Positions 1 to 43,679 of a stretch of 64,000 bases of DNA are shown in pieces. Numbering within the stretch: the stretch's first letter is position 1; the number at the start of each line of letters is the position of its first letter. The notes below the pieces were generated by a model. That model was not told the origin of the DNA, did no database searches, and saw only the letters and a program-made list of their open reading frames with translations. Where the stretch lies: assembly GCA_030695565.1 (NCBI GenBank), contig JAUYRZ010000085.1:1-64000 (forward strand). The letters run 5' to 3'. Source of the stretch: Archangium sp. GTDB taxonomy: Bacteria > Myxococcota > Myxococcia > Myxococcales > Myxococcaceae. The position numbers and the translations under genes are program-made.

Positions 1-3000
1 GGCACGCTCGAGGTGCTGCTGCTGTGCGGAACGTTCTGGTTCGCGGACGAGGAGGCGGGCGCGCCACCGACGGCCAGGTAGCCGTACTGCGCCATGGCCA
101 CCGAGGTGAACTGGGTGTCGAAGAACGGCATGGGGAACGGCACCGTCAGCGACGCAGTGGCCGTGGTGACCGCTCCGTTGACCAGCGGCTGGTAGGCCAC
201 CGGGGTGGGGCCATCCACGATGTACAGTTGCGCCCGGGCCGCCATCGGCACCAGGGCGATCGCCGCGGTGAGGCCGAAGGCCCCCGCCGAGAAGCGGCGC
301 TTGCGCAAGAGCATGAAGCCCAGCGCCGCCAACAGTGCGAGGGGCGACCAGCTCGTCGAGGTGCTGCTGCAGCCCAGCGCCTTCGGCTCGCGCTCGACGC
401 GCAACGAGATCGCCGTGAGACCCGTCATGCCCGACGCATCACTGACCTCGACGACGAACGACCACAGGCCTTCTGAGCCGTCGGCCGCCACGGTGCCGGT
501 GATGGTGCCGGTGGGGTCGAGGGTGAGGCCCGGGGGCAACACGCCACTGGCCACTTCGTACTTCACGGTGCCGCTGGGAGAGACGCTCAAGGGCACGGAG
601 ACCTCAGCGCCCGGGCGGAGCACTTCAGGCAACATGCCGGTCACGCGGTATCGGGGGGGGTGAACAGTCATGGTGAACTCCAGCGTATCCGTGCGGCCGT
701 TGTTGTCTTCAACACTGATGTTGAAGCTGAAGGTGCCGGCCTGGGTGGCGCGGCCGCTCACGGTGATCAATTCAGCCTGAGGGGTGACGGCCAGCCCGTT
801 GGGCACCGCGCCCGTCACTCGCCAGCTCAGCGGCTTGGCCAGCATCGAGCCGTCCTGGTTGGCCACCGCGATGTCCTGCAGGTACTCCTGGCCAATCAGT
901 GCGTCGGGAATCGCCACGGTGCGGAAGGTGATCGCACCGGCGGCGATCAGGCGCAAGGACAGTGCACGGGTCGCCCGGCCGCCCACCGCGTCACGCACTT
1001 CGACGGTGATGGGGATGGCGCCGTTCGAGGCATTGCGCGGGGCTCCGAAGAGCACGCCGTCGGTGCCCAGCGCGAGGCCCATGGGCATGGTGCCACCGGC
1101 CAGACGCCAGCTGTACGGGCGCACGCCGCCCGCGGCTCCGAGGGCGAACTGGTACTGCGAGGTGGTGCTGTTGACCACGGCGGGCAGGCTGGCGGTGGTG
1201 ATGTCCACACCCGAGGTGGTGGGCAGCACGCGCAAGGCGAGCCGCACGGCCGACTGACGGCCACCGTTCTCGAGCACCACGGTCACGCCCACCACTTCGG
1301 CGCCGCCGGAACCCGTGGGGGTTCCTGACAGCAGGCCGTCGGTGGCCCTGATGGAGAGCCACGAGGGCGCGCCGCCCAGGGTGGGGTCGATGCGCCAGGT
1401 CGAAGCACCCTGCTCGCCCACCGCCGACAAGCGGAAGCTGTAGGGGCGGCCGATGACGGCGTCAGGCAACGCGGTGTTGACGACCCGGAGCGAAGACGGC
1501 GCGATCACCATGCTGCGCGAGGCGAGGGCGTTGTTGGTCACGTCGAGATCGCCGGCCACGGTGAGGCCGGGGTCGACGATGCAGCCCACGTAGTAGGTGC
1601 CGGCGGGCATGGTGCCCGGCAGCCGCACCAGCTCGGTGGCGGTGTCGCCGCTGTTGCGAAGCAGCGTCACCATGCCCTCGTCACGCAGGGCGCCGTTGTC
1701 GACGATCTGCAGCAGCACGTCGTCGGTGGTGATGATGTCGTTGGCCGAGGCATAGAACCGGTAGACCGAGGCCGGCGCGTCGACGTTGCCGATGTTGCGA
1801 ATGCTGCGCACCACGGGGACGATCTCACCCACGCCAGCCGAAGCCGGCGCGGTCACGCTGGTGACGGTCAGGTCGGCGCCCGGCTCGGTGATGCGAATGG
1901 GCCCGAGGATGAGGCTGTTGTTGGCCTTGTTGCTCTCGAACACCGCGCCCGTCGAGTCGACGATGCCGAACAGGAAGTACTGGCCGGTGCGGAAGGCGAC
2001 GTTGGCCGCGTTGCGCAGCGGGAGGTTGCAGTTGAGGGTGACCTCGGTCGACATGGTGCTGGGCGCGACCACCGGCACCACCTGATCGCAGACGTAGGTG
2101 TCGGAGAGCAGCGAGAGCGACGAGTCGTTCGAGAGCACGAACGCCACGCGGAAGTTGTTCGCGTTCGCGCCGCCGGTGTTGCGGAACTTCACCCTCATCT
2201 GGGTGGGCTCACCGAACTTCGCGTTGGTGGTCTCGAGGCCGGTCACGGTGTCGAGGAAGTTGACCGTCTCGATGAGCAGGTCGGCACGGCGAACGTCGAC
2301 CTTCGCGGTCGAAGCAGCCACGTTGTTGCCCTCGTTGGCCTCGAGCACCCCGCCGTCGGGGTCGACCTGGAGCAGGAAGTGGAACTGGCCGTTGGGCGCG
2401 TTGGCGGGGATCACCACCGGCAGCGCGGTCTGGGTGATCGTCTGGCCGCCGCTGACCGGGTACGAGCCGGTCGAGACGGTGAAGTCGCTGGGGTCGAGCA
2501 CCTGGTCGGCGCTCATCAAGATCCGGTAGCCGACGGGCGCCGCCGCCGCGGTGGTGCCGCGGTTGAAGAAGCTGAAGGCGAAGTTTTCGGTGTTGCCGCC
2601 ACCGGTGGTGGCCGGGCCCGAGATCGAGGTGGCGACGAGATCGATGCCCTGCACGAAGGCGGTGGCGGTCGAGCCCACGTTGTTGGCCTCGGAGGCCTCC
2701 ATCACCGCGCCGCTCGAGTCGACCTGCACCAGCACGTAGTACTCGCCGGTGGCGGGCGGCGTGGTGGTGGCCGCGCTGCCGCTCACATTCACGATGGCCT
2801 GGCCGCCGTCGAGGGTCACCCCGCCATCGACGCCAGGCAGGCTCTCCGGCCCCCCTTCGGCGACCTGAATGTCGGCGCCGCCATCGGTGGCGGAGACGTC
2901 GAGCAATTGATCGCGCGAGAGAAACGCGCGCCACATGAAGGGGCCCGCGGCCGTGCGGCCGAAGTTCCGCAAGGTGGAGTTGACCGTGAAGCTCAAGTTG

Positions 3001-3758
3001 CCGTCACCTCCGGTGACGAAGCTGGCGATGGTCACCTGGGTCACCGCGAGGTCGGCTTCGTTGGGCTCGCCGATGCGGAACTGGCGGTTGGGCACCCAGT
3101 TGGCCAGCCCGCACGAGGTGGTGCAGTTCGGGGTGCCGGAAATGCCGTTGATGAGGTTGGCGCCCAGGGTGCCGGTGCCGTTCTCGAAGCCCACCGAGCC
3201 GGTGAAGCTGCCGACCATGGGCCCGTGGTGAATCACGATGGAGCCCGAGGCGCTGAGCCGCATCTGGAAGCTCACCGTCGCGGTGGTGCTGCCCAGCGGC
3301 GAGACGTTCGAGAACTCGACGATCAACTCAGAGGGGCCGACGAGGTACTTCACCGAGCCCGGCGAGAGGATCTCGAGGTCTTCCCACAGGCCCGCGATCA
3401 CCGCGTTGGGCGCGCCGGACGAGGGGAAGGCCGCGGTCGTCCAGCAGCTCGAGGTGCAGGCGGTGCCCATCGAGATGAAGCCGTTGGTGTTGATGTGCGC
3501 GGTCGAATAGTTCAAACCGAAATGGGGGAACTGGAACGGCAGCGTCACCGCCAGGTTCCCTTCGTCTTCCGCGTCCCAGGTCGCGCTGTACGGCGAGAAC
3601 ACCACCGTCTGCACCCCGGCGCCCGTGAGCGGCGTGTAAGGCTGGTTGTCTGCGACGAGGATCGTCGGAACCTGGGCCCACGCAGGGCTCGAGACGAGCG
3701 CCAGGGCAAGGAGACTGCTGCTGAGCGCGGTCGAGGGGCTGAAAGAATTGAGCTTCAC
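1..3758 (-). CDS. Secreted CARDB/Ig-repeat surface protein with an internal MYXO-CTERM-like anchor (partial, runs off the left edge)
   Basis: I choose the GTG at 3758 because GGAG lies 6 nt upstream and the first 28 residues then make a Sec signal peptide ending AWA; an in-frame ATG at 3770 would add four residues. About 1252 residues are visible and I read the frame codon by codon from 3060 down to 420 without a stop. The order is a beta-rich N-terminal domain (about 30-225), four CARDB-like repeats (about 232-350, 371-472, 491-610, 627-742), three putative-Ig repeats (about 752-1110), then a MYXO-CTERM-like segment with C1130 in GCSS, a hydrophobic helix and RKRR at 1152-1155. Instead of stopping, the frame enters a second signal-peptide-like stretch ending ARA at 1176 and a new domain resembling the first N-terminal one. 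CARDB and Ig repeats suggest adhesion or display on the cell surface; the partner is unknown. The end is outside the window. Confidence 0.85.
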   Translation of the reverse strand, partial: MKLNSFSPSTALSSSLLALALVSSPAWAQVPTILVADNQPYTPLTGAGVQTVVFSPYSATWDAEDEGNLAVTLPFQFPHFGLNYSTAHINTNGFISMGTACTSSCWTTAAFPSSGAPNAVIAGLWEDLEILSPGSVKYLVGPSELIVEFSNVSPLGSTTATVSFQMRLSASGSIVIHHGPMVGSFTGSVGFENGTGTLGANLINGISGTPNCTTSCGLANWVPNRQFRIGEPNEADLAVTQVTIASFVTGGDGNLSFTVNSTLRNFGRTAAGPFMWRAFLSRDQLLDVSATDGGADIQVAEGGPESLPGVDGGVTLDGGQAIVNVSGSAATTTPPATGEYYVLVQVDSSGAVMEASEANNVGSTATAFVQGIDLVATSISGPATTGGGNTENFAFSFFNRGTTAAAAPVGYRILMSADQVLDPSDFTVSTGSYPVSGGQTITQTALPVVIPANAPNGQFHFLLQVDPDGGVLEANEGNNVAASTAKVDVRRADLLIETVNFLDTVTGLETTNAKFGEPTQMRVKFRNTGGANANNFRVAFVLSNDSSLSLLSDTYVCDQVVPVVAPSTMSTEVTLNCNLPLRNAANVAFRTGQYFLFGIVDSTGAVFESNKANNSLILGPIRITEPGADLTVTSVTAPASAGVGEIVPVVRSIRNIGNVDAPASVYRFYASANDIITTDDVLLQIVDNGALRDEGMVTLLRNSGDTATELVRLPGTMPAGTYYVGCIVDPGLTVAGDLDVTNNALASRSMVIAPSSLRVVNTALPDAVIGRPYSFRLSAVGEQGASTWRIDPTLGGAPSWLSIRATDGLLSGTPTGSGGAEVVGVTVVLENGGRQSAVRLALRVLPTTSGVDITTASLPAVVNSTTSQYQFALGAAGGVRPYSWRLAGGTMPMGLALGTDGVLFGAPRNASNGAIPITVEVRDAVGGRATRALSLRLIAAGAITFRTVAIPDALIGQEYLQDIAVANQDGSMLAKPLSWRVTGAVPNGLAVTPQAELITVSGRATQAGTFSFNISVEDNNGRTDTLEFTMTVHPPRYRVTGMLPEVLRPGAEVSVPLSVSPSGTVKYEVASGVLPPGLTLDPTGTITGTVAADGSEGLWSFVVEVSDASGMTGLTAISLRVEREPKALGCSSTSTSWSPLALLAALGFMLLRKRRFSAGAFGLTAAIALVPMAARAQLYIVDGPTPVAYQPLVNGAVTTATASLTVPFPMPFFDTQFTSVAMAQYGYLAVGGAPASSSANQNVPHSSSTSSV

Positions 3759-3770
3759 GTCGTTCTCCAT

Positions 3771-3803
3771 CAAAACAAAAGCGCCCGCGGCCAGAGGCTG
3801 GCC
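3771..3803 (-). terminator. Likely intrinsic terminator after the vWA lipoprotein gene
   Basis: Read on the minus strand, a 6-bp GGCCAG/CTGGCC stem with a 3-nt loop (3789-3803) is followed by a GC-rich spacer and the T-rich TTTTGTTTTG at 3780-3771. It lies between the stop at 3844 and the start of the next minus-strand gene at 3758. The stem is short and the T-tract is interrupted. Confidence 0.45.
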
Positions 3804-3843: not shown

Positions 3844-6800
3844 TCAAGGAATGCAGGCGGCGGTGTACGTCACGGTCAGCGTCTTGCCCGGCTCAGGCAC
3901 GTACAGCGGCTCGAAGTTGATCGAGTTGTTGGTCGCGTCGTACTCCCAGATGCGCGAGGCCAGGGCGGGGTCGGGATCGACGGAGGGGATGGGCATGCCG
4001 TCGATGGCGACCTGAATGCCGGTGGTTGCCGCGAGGTCGGGCCGCGAGGTGAGGAAGAAGTTCGTGCGGTACCCGAACGCGTTCTTGCCGATGCGCTCCA
4101 GTGCGACGGCCCAGTTCGGGGTGCAGATCTCTTCTTTCACGCCGTTGGTCTGCGCGACCATGAAGTCGTGGCGGCCATCGTTGGCGTCGTCGTACGAGCA
4201 CCCCGAGGGGCTGCTCGGCAAGAACGGGCCGATCACGTTGTAGCTGAACTGACCCGAGCGCTGCGCGCCTTTGATGTTGATGAGCTGGTTCAAATAGAAC
4301 GACGGCGCCTGCGGGGCCTGGTCGCGCGCGTCGGTGACGCACACCACGGCGAGCACGGCCTCCTGGCGCAGAAAGCCCGCGTTCTTCGCGGGGTCGGTGA
4401 TGTTCGGCGCGGTGAGCGCTTTGGTCGCCGGCGCCATGCACGACTCGGAGTAGCCGCTGGTGCCCACGTTCACCAGGTCGGCGAACTCGGTCTGCAGGTT
4501 GGGCGTGGTGGGCCGGAGGATCTTGTTGCCCGCCGCGGTGGTGTGCAGCGTACCGGCGAGCGCCGCGCTGGTGCCGCTCAGCTCGGTGTTGGTCACGCCG
4601 AGGTGGAAGTCGACCTGGTTGCTGGTGGCGTACTGGAGGAACGAGGCCATGTTCTGCGCGAGCGCGGTCTGCTTGTCGCCCATCGAACAGGAGTCGTCGA
4701 TCACCAGGAGGATGTCGGCCTTGGGCTTGGTGTCCTGGCGGAAGGTGTCGGTGTTGAGGCCTTCCATGTCACCGCGGCCCTGGAGCGCGACCACGTAGTC
4801 GAGCGGCTGCCCACCCTGCGTCACGCCGATCACGAAGGCGCCGGTGTCAGGGCCGTAGTTGATGGGGCGGTACTTGAGCGAGAACGTCACGGGCGTCGAG
4901 GTGCCGGGGGCCACGCGGGTGCCACCGGTGATGCCGGAGACCACGAAGAACTCGGGGCACGGCGCGGCGCCGGGGCAGTTCGGGCCGCCGGGGCCTTCAC
5001 CGGCCGCAGAGCCCATCGCCGCCGAGTTGATCACCACCTCGGTGGAGCACGAGTTGTAGATCTGGAAGTTGCGGTTGGGCGAGTTGCAGTCCTTCTTCAC
5101 CGTGCCGAAGTCGAGCGTGCTCGGCGAGATGTTCAGGCAGCTGTTCGCGATGGTGGCCGTCAGCGCGACCTCACGCGAGGGCGAGACGGGGTCGGCGAGG
5201 TTGAACGACACGCGGCCGACGACCTGCGCGGGCACGGGGGGCAGCTGGCCCTGCGGCCAGGCGCGCACCATCACCTGCCGGGTCTCACCGGGCATCAGGT
5301 CGAGCTCATTGATCGGGCCGCCCGGCAACGAGAAGACGGCGGGCATGCCGGTGGGCGTGCCGGTCTCGGGCAGCAGTTGGAGGTTGCTGAGCAGGCAGAC
5401 GTCGTTGGCGCCGGTCAGCCGGTTGCGAATCGTGAAGCCGAGATCCTTGATGGCGGGCGGCGAGACGATGCCGAAGGCCAGCGCGATGGGGGTGATCTCC
5501 ACGTCGCAGGGGGGCAGAATCACCGAGTTGGCGATGACGTTGATGGTGGTCACCGGCTCGTCGGGGTCGTTCGAGAAGATCTTCACTTCGAACTCGCGCG
5601 TGCCCACGCCGTTGGGGGTGATGCGCACGGGGATGTCGAGGATGCTGGTCGACGAACCAGCCTCGAGCCCCTGAATGGGATCGTAGCGGCCGGCGCCCAC
5701 TGCGGGCAGGTCGTCGGTGCAGCCGTTGGTGGCGTCGTAGAAGCCCACGCAGATCTCCGAGGCGAGGGCGCCGTTCTTCGGCGTCACTTCCCAATAGGGG
5801 CGCACGAAACCGCCGGCGCCATCAGACTGGCCGAGCTTCAGGTTCGCGCGGGGGTCGACCGGCGTGGGCCGGGTGCCGACGTTCTGCACGGTGATCTTCC
5901 GGTTCGCGAACGAAGCGGGGTTCGCGCTGGCGAAGTACGCGATGCGGCCGAAGTTGAGCGTGGGTGCCGGGCGCGCATCGATGTCAGGCCCGCCGCCGAC
6001 GCCGCGCAGGTTGACGCTGACCATCGGCTGGCTGGTGAGCTCGGTGACGGCGGTGAGCTGACCTGCGCGCGGGCCGAGCACGGTGGGGCGGAAGGTGAGC
6101 TTGGCCACGGCGGTGCCGGGCGCGATGCCAATGGTGGTCGTCGCGTCACGTACGCCGGCGGGGACGACCAGCGTGGTGAGATCGGCGCTGTCGGTCTCGA
6201 CGACCTTGAAGACGTTGCTGGCGCTGGAGCCTTCGCGGGTGCTCAACATCGCGAGGCGCACGGGGCGCAGCGACAGGTTCGAGAAGGTGACCTGGCCGTT
6301 GACGGTGGTGCCGGGGGGCGCGTAGCCGAAGTCGACGGTGGGGGGTGTCCACGTGAGCACCGAGGCCACGCCGATGCCGAGCAGGCGCACCGGCTTCTCG
6401 GGGCAGCCTTCGGCGCGGCGCATGCGCACGGTGGCGACGTAATCGCGCGCTTCCGTCGGCTTGAAGGTGAACTTCGCGGTCTTCGAGCGCATCGCGGCGA
6501 GGAGAAACTCGCCCTTGGGCGAATCAGGCGAGATGACGAAGATGCCCTCGCCCTGCTGCGACTCGACGGCGCCGAGGTACGCGCGGGTCTCGAGAGGGCG
6601 CGGGTTCACGAAGTCGTATTCGAGCGTGTAGCTGTCGCCGCGGGCAACGGCGCCGAAGTCGATGCTGGCCGGCAGGTCGCACTCGCCAGAGACCGCGATG
6701 CCCTTGAGGGTGATGCTCGCGTTCTCTTTGCCGATCTCGGTGTCGCCCGAGGTCATGGTGAGCAGGGTCTCGTGCACCACCTGCGGCACGCCCTCGACGA

Positions 6801-7194
6801 CGGGGGGCGTGTAGTGGATGTCGAACTCGACCGACTCACCCGTGCCGACCACGGTCTCCTCGGCGAAGTTGATCGCGAAGACCGGTGAGGGCTCGTCGAC
6901 GAAGGTGCCGACCCTGGCCGGGGTGCCGCTCTCCTTGGTGAACTTCTGGATCACCAGGGTGCCGCGGCCGACGTTCTGAACGGTGAGCTTCTGCACGACG
7001 TCTTTGCCCATCGAGACGGTGCCGAAGTCGTAGATGCCGTTGTCGCCCGAGAGCTGCGTGTTGTCGGCGCCGGTGTAGATGATGCGCACTTCGCCACGGC
7101 CGCGCGGAAGCTCTCGGGTCCCGCAGTCCTTGCACCCCTGCAACACGGCAAGCACAGAGACGAACAGGAGCAGGTGGGTCGAAGAAGATTTCAT
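3844..7194 (-). CDS. Lipoprotein with choice-of-anchor D-like repeats and a C-terminal vWA domain
   Basis: The ATG at 7194 has GGAGAG just upstream and gives a lipoprotein signal with lipobox VLQGC (C21); longer in-frame starts have no such context. The protein is 1116 residues. At least six repeats of about 100 residues carry the 'DFG.V..G...L...N.G' pattern of the ASPM-SPD-2-Hydin/choice-of-anchor D family, seen for example as YDFGTVSMG, IDFGAVARG, VDFGYAPPG and LDFGTVKKD. A von Willebrand A domain follows, with the metal-site motif DxSxS at D833-S835-S837 (VIDDSCSMG) and a later CVTDARD strand. Known for the families: Ig-like scaffold repeats, and metal-dependent protein binding by vWA. 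Inferred: a membrane-tethered adhesion or scaffold protein, since no enzymatic residues are visible. It lies directly upstream of the CARDB surface protein on the same strand. Confidence 0.85.
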   Translation of the reverse strand: MKSSSTHLLLFVSVLAVLQGCKDCGTRELPRGRGEVRIIYTGADNTQLSGDNGIYDFGTVSMGKDVVQKLTVQNVGRGTLVIQKFTKESGTPARVGTFVDEPSPVFAINFAEETVVGTGESVEFDIHYTPPVVEGVPQVVHETLLTMTSGDTEIGKENASITLKGIAVSGECDLPASIDFGAVARGDSYTLEYDFVNPRPLETRAYLGAVESQQGEGIFVISPDSPKGEFLLAAMRSKTAKFTFKPTEARDYVATVRMRRAEGCPEKPVRLLGIGVASVLTWTPPTVDFGYAPPGTTVNGQVTFSNLSLRPVRLAMLSTREGSSASNVFKVVETDSADLTTLVVPAGVRDATTTIGIAPGTAVAKLTFRPTVLGPRAGQLTAVTELTSQPMVSVNLRGVGGGPDIDARPAPTLNFGRIAYFASANPASFANRKITVQNVGTRPTPVDPRANLKLGQSDGAGGFVRPYWEVTPKNGALASEICVGFYDATNGCTDDLPAVGAGRYDPIQGLEAGSSTSILDIPVRITPNGVGTREFEVKIFSNDPDEPVTTINVIANSVILPPCDVEITPIALAFGIVSPPAIKDLGFTIRNRLTGANDVCLLSNLQLLPETGTPTGMPAVFSLPGGPINELDLMPGETRQVMVRAWPQGQLPPVPAQVVGRVSFNLADPVSPSREVALTATIANSCLNISPSTLDFGTVKKDCNSPNRNFQIYNSCSTEVVINSAAMGSAAGEGPGGPNCPGAAPCPEFFVVSGITGGTRVAPGTSTPVTFSLKYRPINYGPDTGAFVIGVTQGGQPLDYVVALQGRGDMEGLNTDTFRQDTKPKADILLVIDDSCSMGDKQTALAQNMASFLQYATSNQVDFHLGVTNTELSGTSAALAGTLHTTAAGNKILRPTTPNLQTEFADLVNVGTSGYSESCMAPATKALTAPNITDPAKNAGFLRQEAVLAVVCVTDARDQAPQAPSFYLNQLINIKGAQRSGQFSYNVIGPFLPSSPSGCSYDDANDGRHDFMVAQTNGVKEEICTPNWAVALERIGKNAFGYRTNFFLTSRPDLAATTGIQVAIDGMPIPSVDPDPALASRIWEYDATNNSINFEPLYVPEPGKTLTVTYTAACIP

Positions 7195-7392
7195 CGGAGC
7201 TCTCCAGCGAGGCGCGAACGTTGTTGGAGGAACCCGGCGCGTCCCACCACGAACTCGAAACAATTCAATGCACTTGGCACAAACTCAAAGGAACGGTCAA
7301 CTGGTTGTCGCCTTTCGTTACGTTGCCTCCTGGCTCGATTTGTAAATGGCAGTGGCACTCCTCGACGCCTTCCACCAAAGAGCTGCTGACCC

Positions 7393-27670: not shown

Positions 27671-29218
27671 ATGCGCGCGACCGCTCTGCTCTGCATCGTG
27701 TCGTTGGGTTGCGGTGAAGAGGCCGTCAGCCGCAAGCCGACGGTCGTCTCGCAGACGGCCGAGCTGAGGCCGACCGACACCAACAGCAATCTGATGTGGC
27801 GCTACCTGGCCACCGACACCGTCGAGTCGACCAGCGTCGATGGGGGCGCCTTCAAGGTGCACTTCACCCGCGCGGGCCCCAACGCCGTGCCGATGGGTGA
27901 TGCCGATGACAGCGGCGTTCCCGACTTCGCCGAACGCGTCGAGGAGACCTACGAGGCGGTCGGCGCGCTCTACCACGGGCCGCTGGGCTACCGCCGACCC
28001 CTGTCTGACGCGACCCTCTCGGCCAACGGAGGTGACGGCCGCTTCGACGTCTACCTGCTCGACTTCGCCCGCTCCGCTGACGGTGCGTTCCGCGTCGATC
28101 AATGCCCCTCGGTCGATCGCTGCATCGGCTCGGTGGTGCAGGAAAACGACTTCGTGAGCTACGGCTACCCCAGCGCGCTCATCGCCACCCGCATCCTCGG
28201 CAGCCACGAGTACTTCCACGCGGTGCAGGCGGCCTACGACAACGGGCAGAACGTGGTGATCTCCGAGGGCACCGCGGTGTGGGCCACCGAACGTTTCGAT
28301 CCGAGCACGCGCGACTTCGAGAACTTCATCGGTGGCTATCTCACGCGGCCGGATCGTTCGATCGACTCCCCGCCCCCGGGCCCGGTGCCTGACTTCGCGT
28401 ACGGCTCGGCGATCTTCTTCAAGTTCCTCACCGAGCGGCATGACGACGCGCTGCTCCGCAAGCTGTGGGAGCACCTCGAGAATGGCCAGGGCGATCCGCT
28501 CGAGCCGGCCGATCAAGCGAACCCCACCTGGGTGATCCAGCTCGATGCGCTGCTCAAACGTGACTACCAGTCGAGCTTCGCCGAAGAGTTCGCCGAGTTC
28601 GCCCGGTGGAACCTCTATCTCGGCGACGCGGCGGATCCCGCGCAAGCCTGGGCTGACGCCCGCCTGTACCCGCAGGTCACCATGACCAGCGTGACCGCGC
28701 CGTATCGCCTCGAGGCCTCACGCGTGTTCTACGCCTCGACGCAGTACTACTTCGTGCCCGCCGCGGGCCGAGCCACCATGACCGCCGCGTTGGTCGACAG
28801 CGAGCTGACCACCGGCGACGATCTCGACGGCATGGTGCTCTGGGTGGCCGCGCGCAAAGGCAACCGGAACACCGAGGTCGTCAAGGTCACCGCGGGCCAG
28901 ACCGTCGACGTCACCAACGGCATCTTCATCGCCGCCGTCACCAACACCAACCGCGGGGCCAACGGGGCTTCGTTGAGCCAGCGACCCGGCCTCTGCATCG
29001 GGGCCCCTGATGAGGTGGCGGCCTGCGTGAGCGCGCTGGGCGGCGTGGTGGATGCGGGCGTCGACGCAGGTTCGAGGGCGCCGGTGGATGCAGGCATGGA
29101 GGTCGATGCCGGCGTGCTGGAGCCCACCCCTCCGGCCGGGTGCGGGTGTGGAATGGGCTCGGCGCCGATGCTGTTTTTTACCCTGGCCTTCGCCGTGGGG
29201 CGTCGCCGCAGAAGCTGA
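27671..29218 (+). CDS. MXAN_6640-like secreted metalloprotease with MYXO-CTERM anchor
   Basis: 515 residues. An N-terminal signal (about 1-14, GC at its end suggests a lipobox) is followed by a beta-rich region containing a calcium-type loop (GDADDSGVPDF). The catalytic HExxH is H179-E180-H183 in GSHEYFHAVQAAYD, with the downstream Glu in ISEGTAVWATERFD; the order matches the MXAN_6640 family of putative metalloproteases. A Pro/Asp/Ala/Gly linker ('VDAGVDAG', 'VDAGMEVDAG') precedes a C-terminal anchor: CGCGMGSAPMLFFTLAF then RRRRS, the MYXO-CTERM pattern recognised by the myxosortase system. It should be processed and surface-attached. It follows the HmuY-like gene by 5 nt and probably acts with it. 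Confidence 0.85.
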   Translation: MRATALLCIVSLGCGEEAVSRKPTVVSQTAELRPTDTNSNLMWRYLATDTVESTSVDGGAFKVHFTRAGPNAVPMGDADDSGVPDFAERVEETYEAVGALYHGPLGYRRPLSDATLSANGGDGRFDVYLLDFARSADGAFRVDQCPSVDRCIGSVVQENDFVSYGYPSALIATRILGSHEYFHAVQAAYDNGQNVVISEGTAVWATERFDPSTRDFENFIGGYLTRPDRSIDSPPPGPVPDFAYGSAIFFKFLTERHDDALLRKLWEHLENGQGDPLEPADQANPTWVIQLDALLKRDYQSSFAEEFAEFARWNLYLGDAADPAQAWADARLYPQVTMTSVTAPYRLEASRVFYASTQYYFVPAAGRATMTAALVDSELTTGDDLDGMVLWVAARKGNRNTEVVKVTAGQTVDVTNGIFIAAVTNTNRGANGASLSQRPGLCIGAPDEVAACVSALGGVVDAGVDAGSRAPVDAGMEVDAGVLEPTPPAGCGCGMGSAPMLFFTLAFAVGRRRRS

Positions 29219-41960: not shown

Positions 41961-43679
41961 TCAGCGCGGCAGTCTACGTTGCTCCCGTTGCGTCACGAGG
42001 CGAATCGAAGCCTGCCGACGCAGCAAGAGCGCGAGGAAGGCGAACGCGATCAGGAACGGCGTCAACGAGGCTCCCGAGCTGGAGCAACCAGCCGCCTGGG
42101 CACCATCGATGTCGTTGCTGGCTTCAAGAGGAGATGAAACGGTCGAGCTGCACACCTCGCCGAGCGTGAGGCGCACGCGGGTGAGGGGCTGGTGGGTGTC
42201 GCCGTTCTGAATGTGGAGCTCCGCCGAGATCGCGTTGACGACGGTGCCGGCCGTGTAGGTGGTGTTGCCGCTGCCACCGTGGCGGCAGCCGCCGTTGTGC
42301 ACCCGGCAACGATCCAGCACGTAGCTGCTGGCGAGCGCGAGCTGCGTGGGGCTGGTGGGGTGCGACTGGTTGGAGCGGCTGCGGTACTCGCACTCCACCG
42401 TGCGGTTGCCGAGGTTGATCGTGAGGTCAGCCTTCTTGTTGCCCGCGTTGCCGGCCACCACGGGGATCGCCGCGGGGATGGCGAAGGACATCGAAGGCGT
42501 GAAGTTGGCCTGGCCATCGACGCTGCGCGTGGGGCTGTAGAACCGCGTCGCTTCGATGGTGACGCTGCGGTTCAGACAAGCCGTACCGGCATCGGGCGTC
42601 CCCGCGTCGGGCGTGCCCGCATCGACCACCGGGGCCGCAGGCAGCGTGAAGGTCGCCGCGTAGATGTTGGCGTTGTTCGGGTCGGTCAGCGCCACCGACT
42701 GCCACACGAGGCGCACTTCGCCATTGGGGAGCACCGTCACGTCGTTGAGCGACTCGGCGAGATCGGGCGTGTTGGTGATCTGGAAGATGCGGTTGCTGGT
42801 CAGCTCGACCAGGAAGATGTCGGGGTTGCCGAAAGGCTCGCGGCTCTCGAAGGCCACCAGCTGGCCGCGGATCGACGGGTTGTACTGCTCACCGGGAATC
42901 TCCAGGACCGTCTCCGGGCCGCCGGTGACGGGCACCAGCACGATGTTGGTGCCCGTGGGCCCGGCCATGTTCTCGCGCTGGAAGACCACCAGGCTGCCGT
43001 TGGTGTCGGCGCTCAGCTCGTTGAGCACCTGCGAAGCGAGCGGCGCGATCAGCCACAAGCCACCCGAGCGATTGGCGCGGTAGACGTCGCAGTTGGCCGA
43101 GCTCGCGCAGCGCTCCCAGGTGATCACGTTGCCGTCGGGCGAGACCGCGGGGTTGGTATCGGACACCGCGTCGTTGGTCAGCCGGGTGACCACCGAGGTG
43201 GCGAGGTCGAGCACCATCAGCTCGCCGGGGCCGCTGGCGTAGTCGACGAAGGCCACCGTCTGCGAGCCGAGCGCGACGCCCATGCGGGTGGTGCTGGGCG
43301 CGGGCGCCAGCTCGGTGAGCGTCTGGGTGGTGATGTCGAACAACATGATGGCGCTGCGGTCTGGAAAGAGCCGGGTGAAGACGATGCGGCCCTGGTCGAC
43401 GTCGCTGAGCAGGTCGTTGGCCAGACCGCCACCCGCGAGCAGGTTGGAGATCGCCACGTCCTGGTTGGTGGGGAAGTCGTAGTAGCGAATCTGCTGCAGC
43501 AGGCCCGCCGCGCCCATGTCGACCGCGTTCGAGTACGCCGCCGTATCGGCGTCGACGTGGGGGTCGAACTGCTCACCTTGCTGATCGTTGATGGTGACCT
43601 GCGGGGGGGACAGCAGGCCGCCGTTCGTCGGCGTCACCGTCAGCGTCATCGCGAAGACCACTGCTGCCACTGTGCCCAT
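41961..43679 (-). CDS. MYXO-CTERM beta-propeller surface protein
   Basis: 572 residues; the ATG at 43679 has GGAGG 4 nt upstream. A signal peptide is present (about 1-20). The body (about 30-365) shows WD40/TolB-like strands: 'QIRYYDFPTNQDVAISNLL', 'RLTNDAVSDTNPAVSPDGNVITWERCASSANC', 'FESREPFGNPDIFLVELTSNRIFQIT'. 'SPDG' is typical of PD40/TolB propeller repeats. A 'DAGTPDAGTPDAGT' linker and a further domain (about 385-520, 'TIEATRFYSPTRSVDGQANF...') lead to a MYXO-CTERM anchor (AAGCSSSGASLTPFLIAFAFLALLLRRQ) with an Arg-rich tail. The stop is 1 nt before the next gene. First gene of the coupled operon, so its promoter should be in 43680-43983. Confidence 0.85.
   Translation of the reverse strand: MGTVAAVVFAMTLTVTPTNGGLLSPPQVTINDQQGEQFDPHVDADTAAYSNAVDMGAAGLLQQIRYYDFPTNQDVAISNLLAGGGLANDLLSDVDQGRIVFTRLFPDRSAIMLFDITTQTLTELAPAPSTTRMGVALGSQTVAFVDYASGPGELMVLDLATSVVTRLTNDAVSDTNPAVSPDGNVITWERCASSANCDVYRANRSGGLWLIAPLASQVLNELSADTNGSLVVFQRENMAGPTGTNIVLVPVTGGPETVLEIPGEQYNPSIRGQLVAFESREPFGNPDIFLVELTSNRIFQITNTPDLAESLNDVTVLPNGEVRLVWQSVALTDPNNANIYAATFTLPAAPVVDAGTPDAGTPDAGTACLNRSVTIEATRFYSPTRSVDGQANFTPSMSFAIPAAIPVVAGNAGNKKADLTINLGNRTVECEYRSRSNQSHPTSPTQLALASSYVLDRCRVHNGGCRHGGSGNTTYTAGTVVNAISAELHIQNGDTHQPLTRVRLTLGEVCSSTVSSPLEASNDIDGAQAAGCSSSGASLTPFLIAFAFLALLLRRQASIRLVTQREQRRLPR

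Follow-up and report, generated by a model that had tools for sequence, protein, structure and literature searches.

A reading frame on the minus strand at the left edge of the window (here the whole 64,000-nucleotide stretch of Archangium sp. contig JAUYRZ010000085.1) encodes an adhesin with a MYXO-CTERM surface anchor and, instead of stopping there, reads on into a second signal peptide. This raises the question of whether 2 surface proteins are encoded by a single gene, and if so, how they come apart. Bacteria normally hold partner proteins in ratio by means of operons and not polyproteins, and the two-in-one polyprotein format has, to our knowledge, rarely been described in them.

The fused reading frame and its parts

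The frame covered positions 3..3773 on the minus strand, as do all features described in this section unless otherwise stated, and contained no stop codon up to base 3, base 1 of the window being the end of its contig (C112). It encodes a complete adhesin (adhesin 1), an internal MYXO-CTERM anchor, an internal signal peptide and about 76 amino acids of a second adhesin (adhesin 2). The candidate start codons were TTG 3773, ATG 3770 or a later one, and the residue numbering depends on this choice; counted from TTG 3773, the cysteine of the internal anchor is residue 1135, while the numbers in the first-pass annotation were about 5 lower. Adhesin 1 starts with a signal peptide (3675..3773) that ends in SSPAWA/QVPT, where the slash marks the predicted cleavage, and the same A/Q ending was seen in the internal signal peptide. 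Its domains are a nidogen-like head, CARDB repeats and He_PIG Ig repeats.

The internal MYXO-CTERM anchor (GCSSTSTSWSPLALLAALGFMLLRKRR; 294..374) was matched by the curated model TIGR03901 with 21.3 bits against a cut-off of 20. It contains the codon of an invariant cysteine (369..371), the expected site of both lipidation and myxosortase cleavage, which was present in 25 of 25 orthologous junctions. This is followed by a first hydrophobic helix (306..347), a putative stop-transfer segment with a mean hydropathy of 1.95 over 15 residues, and by an RKRR cluster (294..305), which would serve as the cytoplasmic tail of the first anchor and as the n-region of the second signal peptide together. 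The h- and c-regions of the internal signal peptide (231..293), with a helix-breaking proline at position -6 and the end ARA/Q, were identified by motif, charge, hydropathy and conservation. The ARA motif ends at nucleotide 231, cleavage is predicted between nucleotides 231 and 230, and adhesin 2 starts with the segment 3..230.

The anchor shows the signature with its cysteine and a hydrophobic helix followed by an Arg-rich cluster, but it is not located at a C-terminus, the frame continuing for about 900 amino acids in the orthologues. The signal peptide has the positive n-region, the hydrophobic h-region and the small residues at -3 and -1 of a Sec type I signal peptide, but the translated protein does not begin with it: about 1150 amino acids precede it in frame. 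The first-pass annotation had described a frame that meets no stop codon as it passes through the anchor and on into a second signal peptide, and the TIGR03901 match above the cut-off and the open frame to base 3 bear this out. Among 30 TIGR03901 matches checked in the source genome, 27 were followed by a stop codon 24 to 53 amino acids after the match start, whereas 3 were internal, one of which was the joint studied here; this speaks against a chance occurrence. Two further matches in the window, at 42015-42092 (minus strand) and 29135-29212 (plus strand), were below the cut-off, with 19.2 and 15.3 bits, respectively.

The second half of the gene

The end of the second protein, which lies beyond the window edge, was located at the end of another contig, C132. 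The gene fragment on this contig (L026) encodes 794 amino acids with CARDB and He_PIG domains and ends with ...GLDPSLLALALAGFALRRRRR and a stop codon; its own terminal MYXO-CTERM scored 25.0 bits. A comparison with the unbroken orthologue L027 indicated that the 2 contigs abut, with about 2 codons missing between them, and the expected downstream neighbor gene follows adhesin 2 on C132. The gene is also split over 2 contigs in a sister species (G005), in which the contig ends overlap by 141 exact bases and the frame continues. It was noted that contigs of 3 genomes (that of the window; G005:C148/C47; G010:C909) end about 55 to 130 codons past the cysteine of the joint.

The first-pass annotation had also pointed to a resemblance between the N-terminal parts of the 2 proteins. 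The E-values for the alignment of the halves of L027 were 2e-40 in the Ig/CARDB part and 1.5e-15 in the N-terminal part, in agreement with this suggestion.

Conservation of the fusion across myxobacteria

All 25 distinct orthologous junctions, which were taken from independent assemblies, were fused in one frame. A search of 40 relatives gave matches that covered the joint from both sides within one open frame each; many of these frames extended over about 2000 to 2500 amino acids without a stop. A scan of named genomes was done with a closer sequence set, the first alignment being too divergent, and yielded 20 loci in Archangium, Myxococcus, Myxococcaceae, Archangiaceae and Myxococcales metagenome-assembled genomes from many separate projects, as well as one weak match in Solibacter. 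Four more loci of the adhesin family, 3 of them in genomes outside the set of 25, were recovered in the wider survey of joints described below and were also fused. In a census covering 147 genomes of this class, the second half was identified in 31 genomes, representing 20 genera and at least 6 families; at the census threshold, several well-sampled genera, whose genomes are large and complete, did not have it in any of the members listed.

A separate 2-gene arrangement was sought in the orthologues, and none was found wherever the joint was covered. The only unfused relatives were a stand-alone paralog in the source genome (G000:C13) and a set of tandem genes in genome G028. Furthermore, the Ka/Ks ratio through the joint was below 1 in all 10 pairs examined (for example 0.025/0.517 and 0.099/0.924), so the joint is translated, and under selection, in the fused frame. 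Many soil and groundwater myxobacteria keep 2 surface proteins, and 3 in some lineages, in one gene. Of the explanations offered in the first-pass annotation, the fusion of 2 tandem paralogs by loss of a stop codon is the one that stood: the 2 halves are paralogs, and every orthologous junction seen has kept the fusion.

Origin of the fusion and its unfused relatives

To one side of a tree inferred from both halves were the first halves, together with one duplicated stand-alone copy, and to the other were the second halves, together with the stand-alone genes of G028, with matching internal branching on the 2 sides. The split between the sides was weakly supported (64), and the labels required 3 changes, as compared with 18.2 in shuffles. 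The congruence of the trees of the 2 halves indicates that the fusion is ancient, and the simplest reading of the sequences would be a single tandem duplication and fusion long ago, followed by vertical inheritance.

The duplicate of the first half in the source genome (G000:C13) is encoded on its own and ends shortly after the same MYXO-CTERM tag, so that the first half works alone. In the complete genome G028 (C1:4239400-4247100; L175), 3 unfused relatives are arranged in tandem, each with its own MYXO-CTERM and stop codon. This is an example of a tandem arrangement before, or without, fusion.

Neighbor genes and a triple fusion

Upstream of the fused gene is a gene for a lipoprotein (3844..7263, minus strand) with HYDIN-type Ig domains, as assigned by Pfam, and an apparent vWA-like region, as judged from the sequence only. 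Of the fused loci, 21 had the HYDIN-Ig/vWA lipoprotein upstream and 19 had a Cys-rich lipoprotein, which lay directly downstream in nearly all of the 19; the gene order is conserved. The gene for the Cys-rich lipoprotein is separate in the source genome, where it starts at a codon of its own behind a purine-rich leader.

In genomes G024 and G026, by contrast, the Cys-rich lipoprotein forms a third module of the same frame and has its own lipobox (LGTGC and VAAGC, respectively). The order of the modules is adhesin 1, MYXO-CTERM, signal peptide, adhesin 2, MYXO-CTERM, Arg cluster, lipobox and Cys-rich lipoprotein. All 3 proteins are contained in one frame of 2534 amino acids in G024 (C105; L040), while the triple fusion in G026 (C107; L042) includes an assembly gap of unknown bases in adhesin 2.

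Anatomy of the joint

An alignment of 17 rows from the cysteine to the cleavage site contained only a few invariant columns: the cysteine, 2 adjacent arginines, alanine at -1 and glutamine at +1. Proline was found at -6 in 16 of the 17 rows, and position -3 was occupied only by alanine, glycine or serine. In the wider set of 25 joints, 3 distant rows had a residue other than glutamine at +1. The Arg loop between the helices carried a net charge of +3 to +7 in all 25 junctions and varied in length; the distance from the arginine pair to the AxA motif ranged from 18 to 33 residues, and the lengths of the hydrophobic segments varied as well. This is the pattern expected for 2 protease sites on either side of a cytoplasmic loop. 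An alanine-rich hydrophobic end often yields an AxA motif by chance, but not an invariant A/Q, and the N-terminal signal peptides of the fused proteins mostly share the A/Q ending with the internal one.

An AlphaFold2 model of the joint added little; it contained a confident cadherin/Rib-like Ig domain, followed by a weakly predicted hairpin with pLDDT values of about 45 to 75, in which a helix at model residues 120-133 corresponds to the first hydrophobic helix.

Proposed processing of the fused product

Taken together, we consider it likely that the gene encodes a surface polyprotein, in which one exported chain would be cut after the cysteine by myxosortase and after AxA by signal peptidase I to give 2 lipid-anchored adhesins in equal amounts. 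The cell would thus probably make one long chain and cut it apart in the membrane. A single mRNA and frame would specify signal peptide 1, adhesin 1, MYXO-CTERM 1, the Arg loop, signal peptide 2, adhesin 2 and MYXO-CTERM 2. Adhesin 1 would be exported by Sec until the helix of MYXO-CTERM 1 halts transfer, with the Arg loop staying on the cytoplasmic side, and the next hydrophobic segment would restart transfer as a signal peptide. Cleavage by signal peptidase I after AxA and by the myxosortase MrtX after the lipidated cysteine would free a short helical hairpin and leave 2 separately lipid-anchored, surface-bound adhesins in a 1:1 ratio. The adhesins are probably partners of each other and of the adjacent HYDIN/vWA and Cys-rich lipoproteins. 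MrtX is known to cleave MYXO-CTERM and to require its cysteine (PMC11980579), and it is encoded in the source genome (NF040593, 318.9 bits; cut-off 180). Because the Arg cluster serves both signals, the loss of a stop codon between 2 such genes would be easily tolerated.

It seems rather unlikely that only one of the sites is cut, by signal peptidase or by myxosortase, with one product keeping an odd hairpin as a tail or leader. Either enzyme alone would suffice to separate the adhesins, and cleavage at AxA alone would give adhesin 1 a tail made of the MYXO-CTERM and the second helix; the 2 sites are, however, equally conserved.

We think it quite improbable that the chain stays intact as a two-headed protein, in which the hydrophobic segments would remain permanently in the inner membrane as a helical hairpin that holds both adhesins in the periplasm. 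The frame is continuous and the structure model places 2 short helices at the joint, as this explanation would have it, but the invariant residues fit 2 protease sites and not a pair of helices, and neither the hydrophobic segments nor the loop are constant in length. Moreover, adhesin 2 bears a surface-sorting tag of its own, and the first half also occurs alone with the same tag.

A third explanation, proposed in the first-pass annotation, is that one stretch encodes both the end of the first protein and the start of the second, with a second ribosome start at the ATG of MLLRKRR (312..314, minus strand). This codon does precede RKRR in the source genome, and 6 of the 25 orthologues have an ATG nearby. 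It is not conserved, however: when the stretch from the middle of the first helix to the end of the Arg loop was taken as usable for a start, and ATG, GTG and TTG were counted, 10 of the 25 orthologues had no start codon. No Shine-Dalgarno-like sequence preceded the candidate starts in any of the 25 joints. Similarly, among the 40 other joints described below, 9 had no start codon at all and one had a Shine-Dalgarno-like motif. The joints thus show no conserved start with a ribosome-binding site of the kind found in overlapping or nested genes, and internal initiation would leave the constant absence of a stop codon unexplained. It was therefore rejected as a conserved mechanism on the basis of the 25 and 40 joints, the ATG at 312..314 was judged to be unused, and we regard a second start at this codon as very unlikely.

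Finally, an error of sequencing or assembly that removed a stop codon, or a chimeric contig end, also raised in the first pass, has a negligible probability: the window does start at a contig end, the usual site of such errors, but the same fused frame was found in independent assemblies from many studies, on contigs of up to 573 kb, and the G005 contigs overlap exactly and continue in frame.

Relation to known systems

A search of the literature for bacterial polyproteins gave no matching case, and conserved double or triple polyproteins were not found. A membrane polyprotein in bacteria is the cytochrome b/c1 precursor encoded by fbcH in Bradyrhizobium, in which an internal signal sequence is cut by signal peptidase; it differs in that it gives rise to respiratory proteins, with no sorting tag and no surface anchoring. 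In the envelope polyproteins of flaviviruses and pestiviruses, a stop-transfer helix is followed by the signal-sequence helix of the next protein, and the chain is cut by signal peptidase. This is an analogy only, since these are eukaryotic viruses that use the endoplasmic reticulum and there is no relation by descent.

A precedent for the cutting of an internal tag is HVO_0405 of Haloferax volcanii, likewise a fused protein that carries its sorting tag mid-chain; cleavage of this tripartite tag by ArtA has been shown, according to the account in PMC7157517 (Abdul Halim 2017, cited therein). That protein is archaeal, with another tag and enzyme, and the same account describes it as a strain-specific fusion, whereas the fusion in the window is conserved. 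In Myxococcus xanthus, TraA and TraB represent a MYXO-CTERM surface protein and an envelope partner from adjacent, translationally linked genes, but the stop and start codons of these genes are separate, with an overlap of 4 bases (PMC3325183).

The closest case is MXAN_5598 of M. xanthus, in which a large adhesin, an internal MYXO-CTERM and a second protein are encoded in one frame (Guo, Haft and Wall 2025, PMC11980579). The authors noted this single case of an internal MYXO-CTERM in M. xanthus, which they called rare, and proposed that the N-terminal part undergoes processing and is anchored at the surface, and that 2 genes may have fused here (PMC11980579). The protein has been detected in outer-membrane vesicles (PMC4158809). 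The signal peptide in the MXAN_5598-like gene of the source genome follows right after the Arg cluster, as in the joint of the window. However, the second part of MXAN_5598 forms an outer-membrane barrel that carries an OmpA domain, whereas the second half in the window family is a paralogous adhesin that contains only CARDB and He_PIG domains and ends in a MYXO-CTERM. Also unlike MXAN_5598, a third lipoprotein follows in 2 lineages of the window family. What is new relative to this isolated internal MYXO-CTERM is the second MYXO-CTERM, the conservation across families and the triple form.

Recurrence in other genes of the Myxococcota

When the phylum was searched with a profile of the joint, in-frame matches turned up in many other genes, unrelated ones among them. 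We examined 40 of these, all of which were single frames. The downstream parts of 32 clustered together and had mostly an OmpA-like end (PF00691 in the one that was scanned), corresponding to the MXAN_5598 type; 4 belonged to the adhesin family of the window, and the remaining 4 were singletons, including an amidase fusion. The representative of the MXAN_5598 type in the source genome (G000:C64:30637; L050/L076) encodes an adhesin, a MYXO-CTERM, a signal peptide and a barrel/OmpA protein in 2656 amino acids, and related fusions were common in the phylum, with up to several per genome (e.g. G005). A second type of putative polyprotein in the source genome (G000:C131:64713; L066/L077) joins 16 MopE repeats in one frame to a MYXO-CTERM, which is followed by a lipoprotein signal (LLSGC) and then by a vWA protein; this joint was unbroken in 3 relatives (G005, G006 and G010).

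We lean towards the view that polyproteins are a regular export format in the Myxococcota, in which the Arg cluster of a MYXO-CTERM anchor is also the n-region of the signal peptide that follows, of type I or lipoprotein type, and 2 to 3 proteins in a fixed ratio are cut apart by myxosortase and signal peptidases I/II. The format would have had several unrelated origins and been kept for very long. If the conserved surface polyprotein is real, it would show that one cluster of charges can belong to a stop-transfer anchor and to a signal peptide at once. It would also provide a ready assay for myxosortase with a large substrate, about 100 kDa separating the precursor from the 2 products. Gene callers and surveys of MYXO-CTERM that consider only the C-terminus would then miss part of the myxobacterial surface proteome.

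Two individual fusions were also noted. In one (L143; G182:C28), an N-acetylmuramoyl-L-alanine amidase with a MYXO-CTERM continues in frame into a second exported protein, which has about 280 amino acids. The other (L169; G023:C394) is a further, unrelated MopE-type protein, which contains an internal MYXO-CTERM and a second, terminal one.
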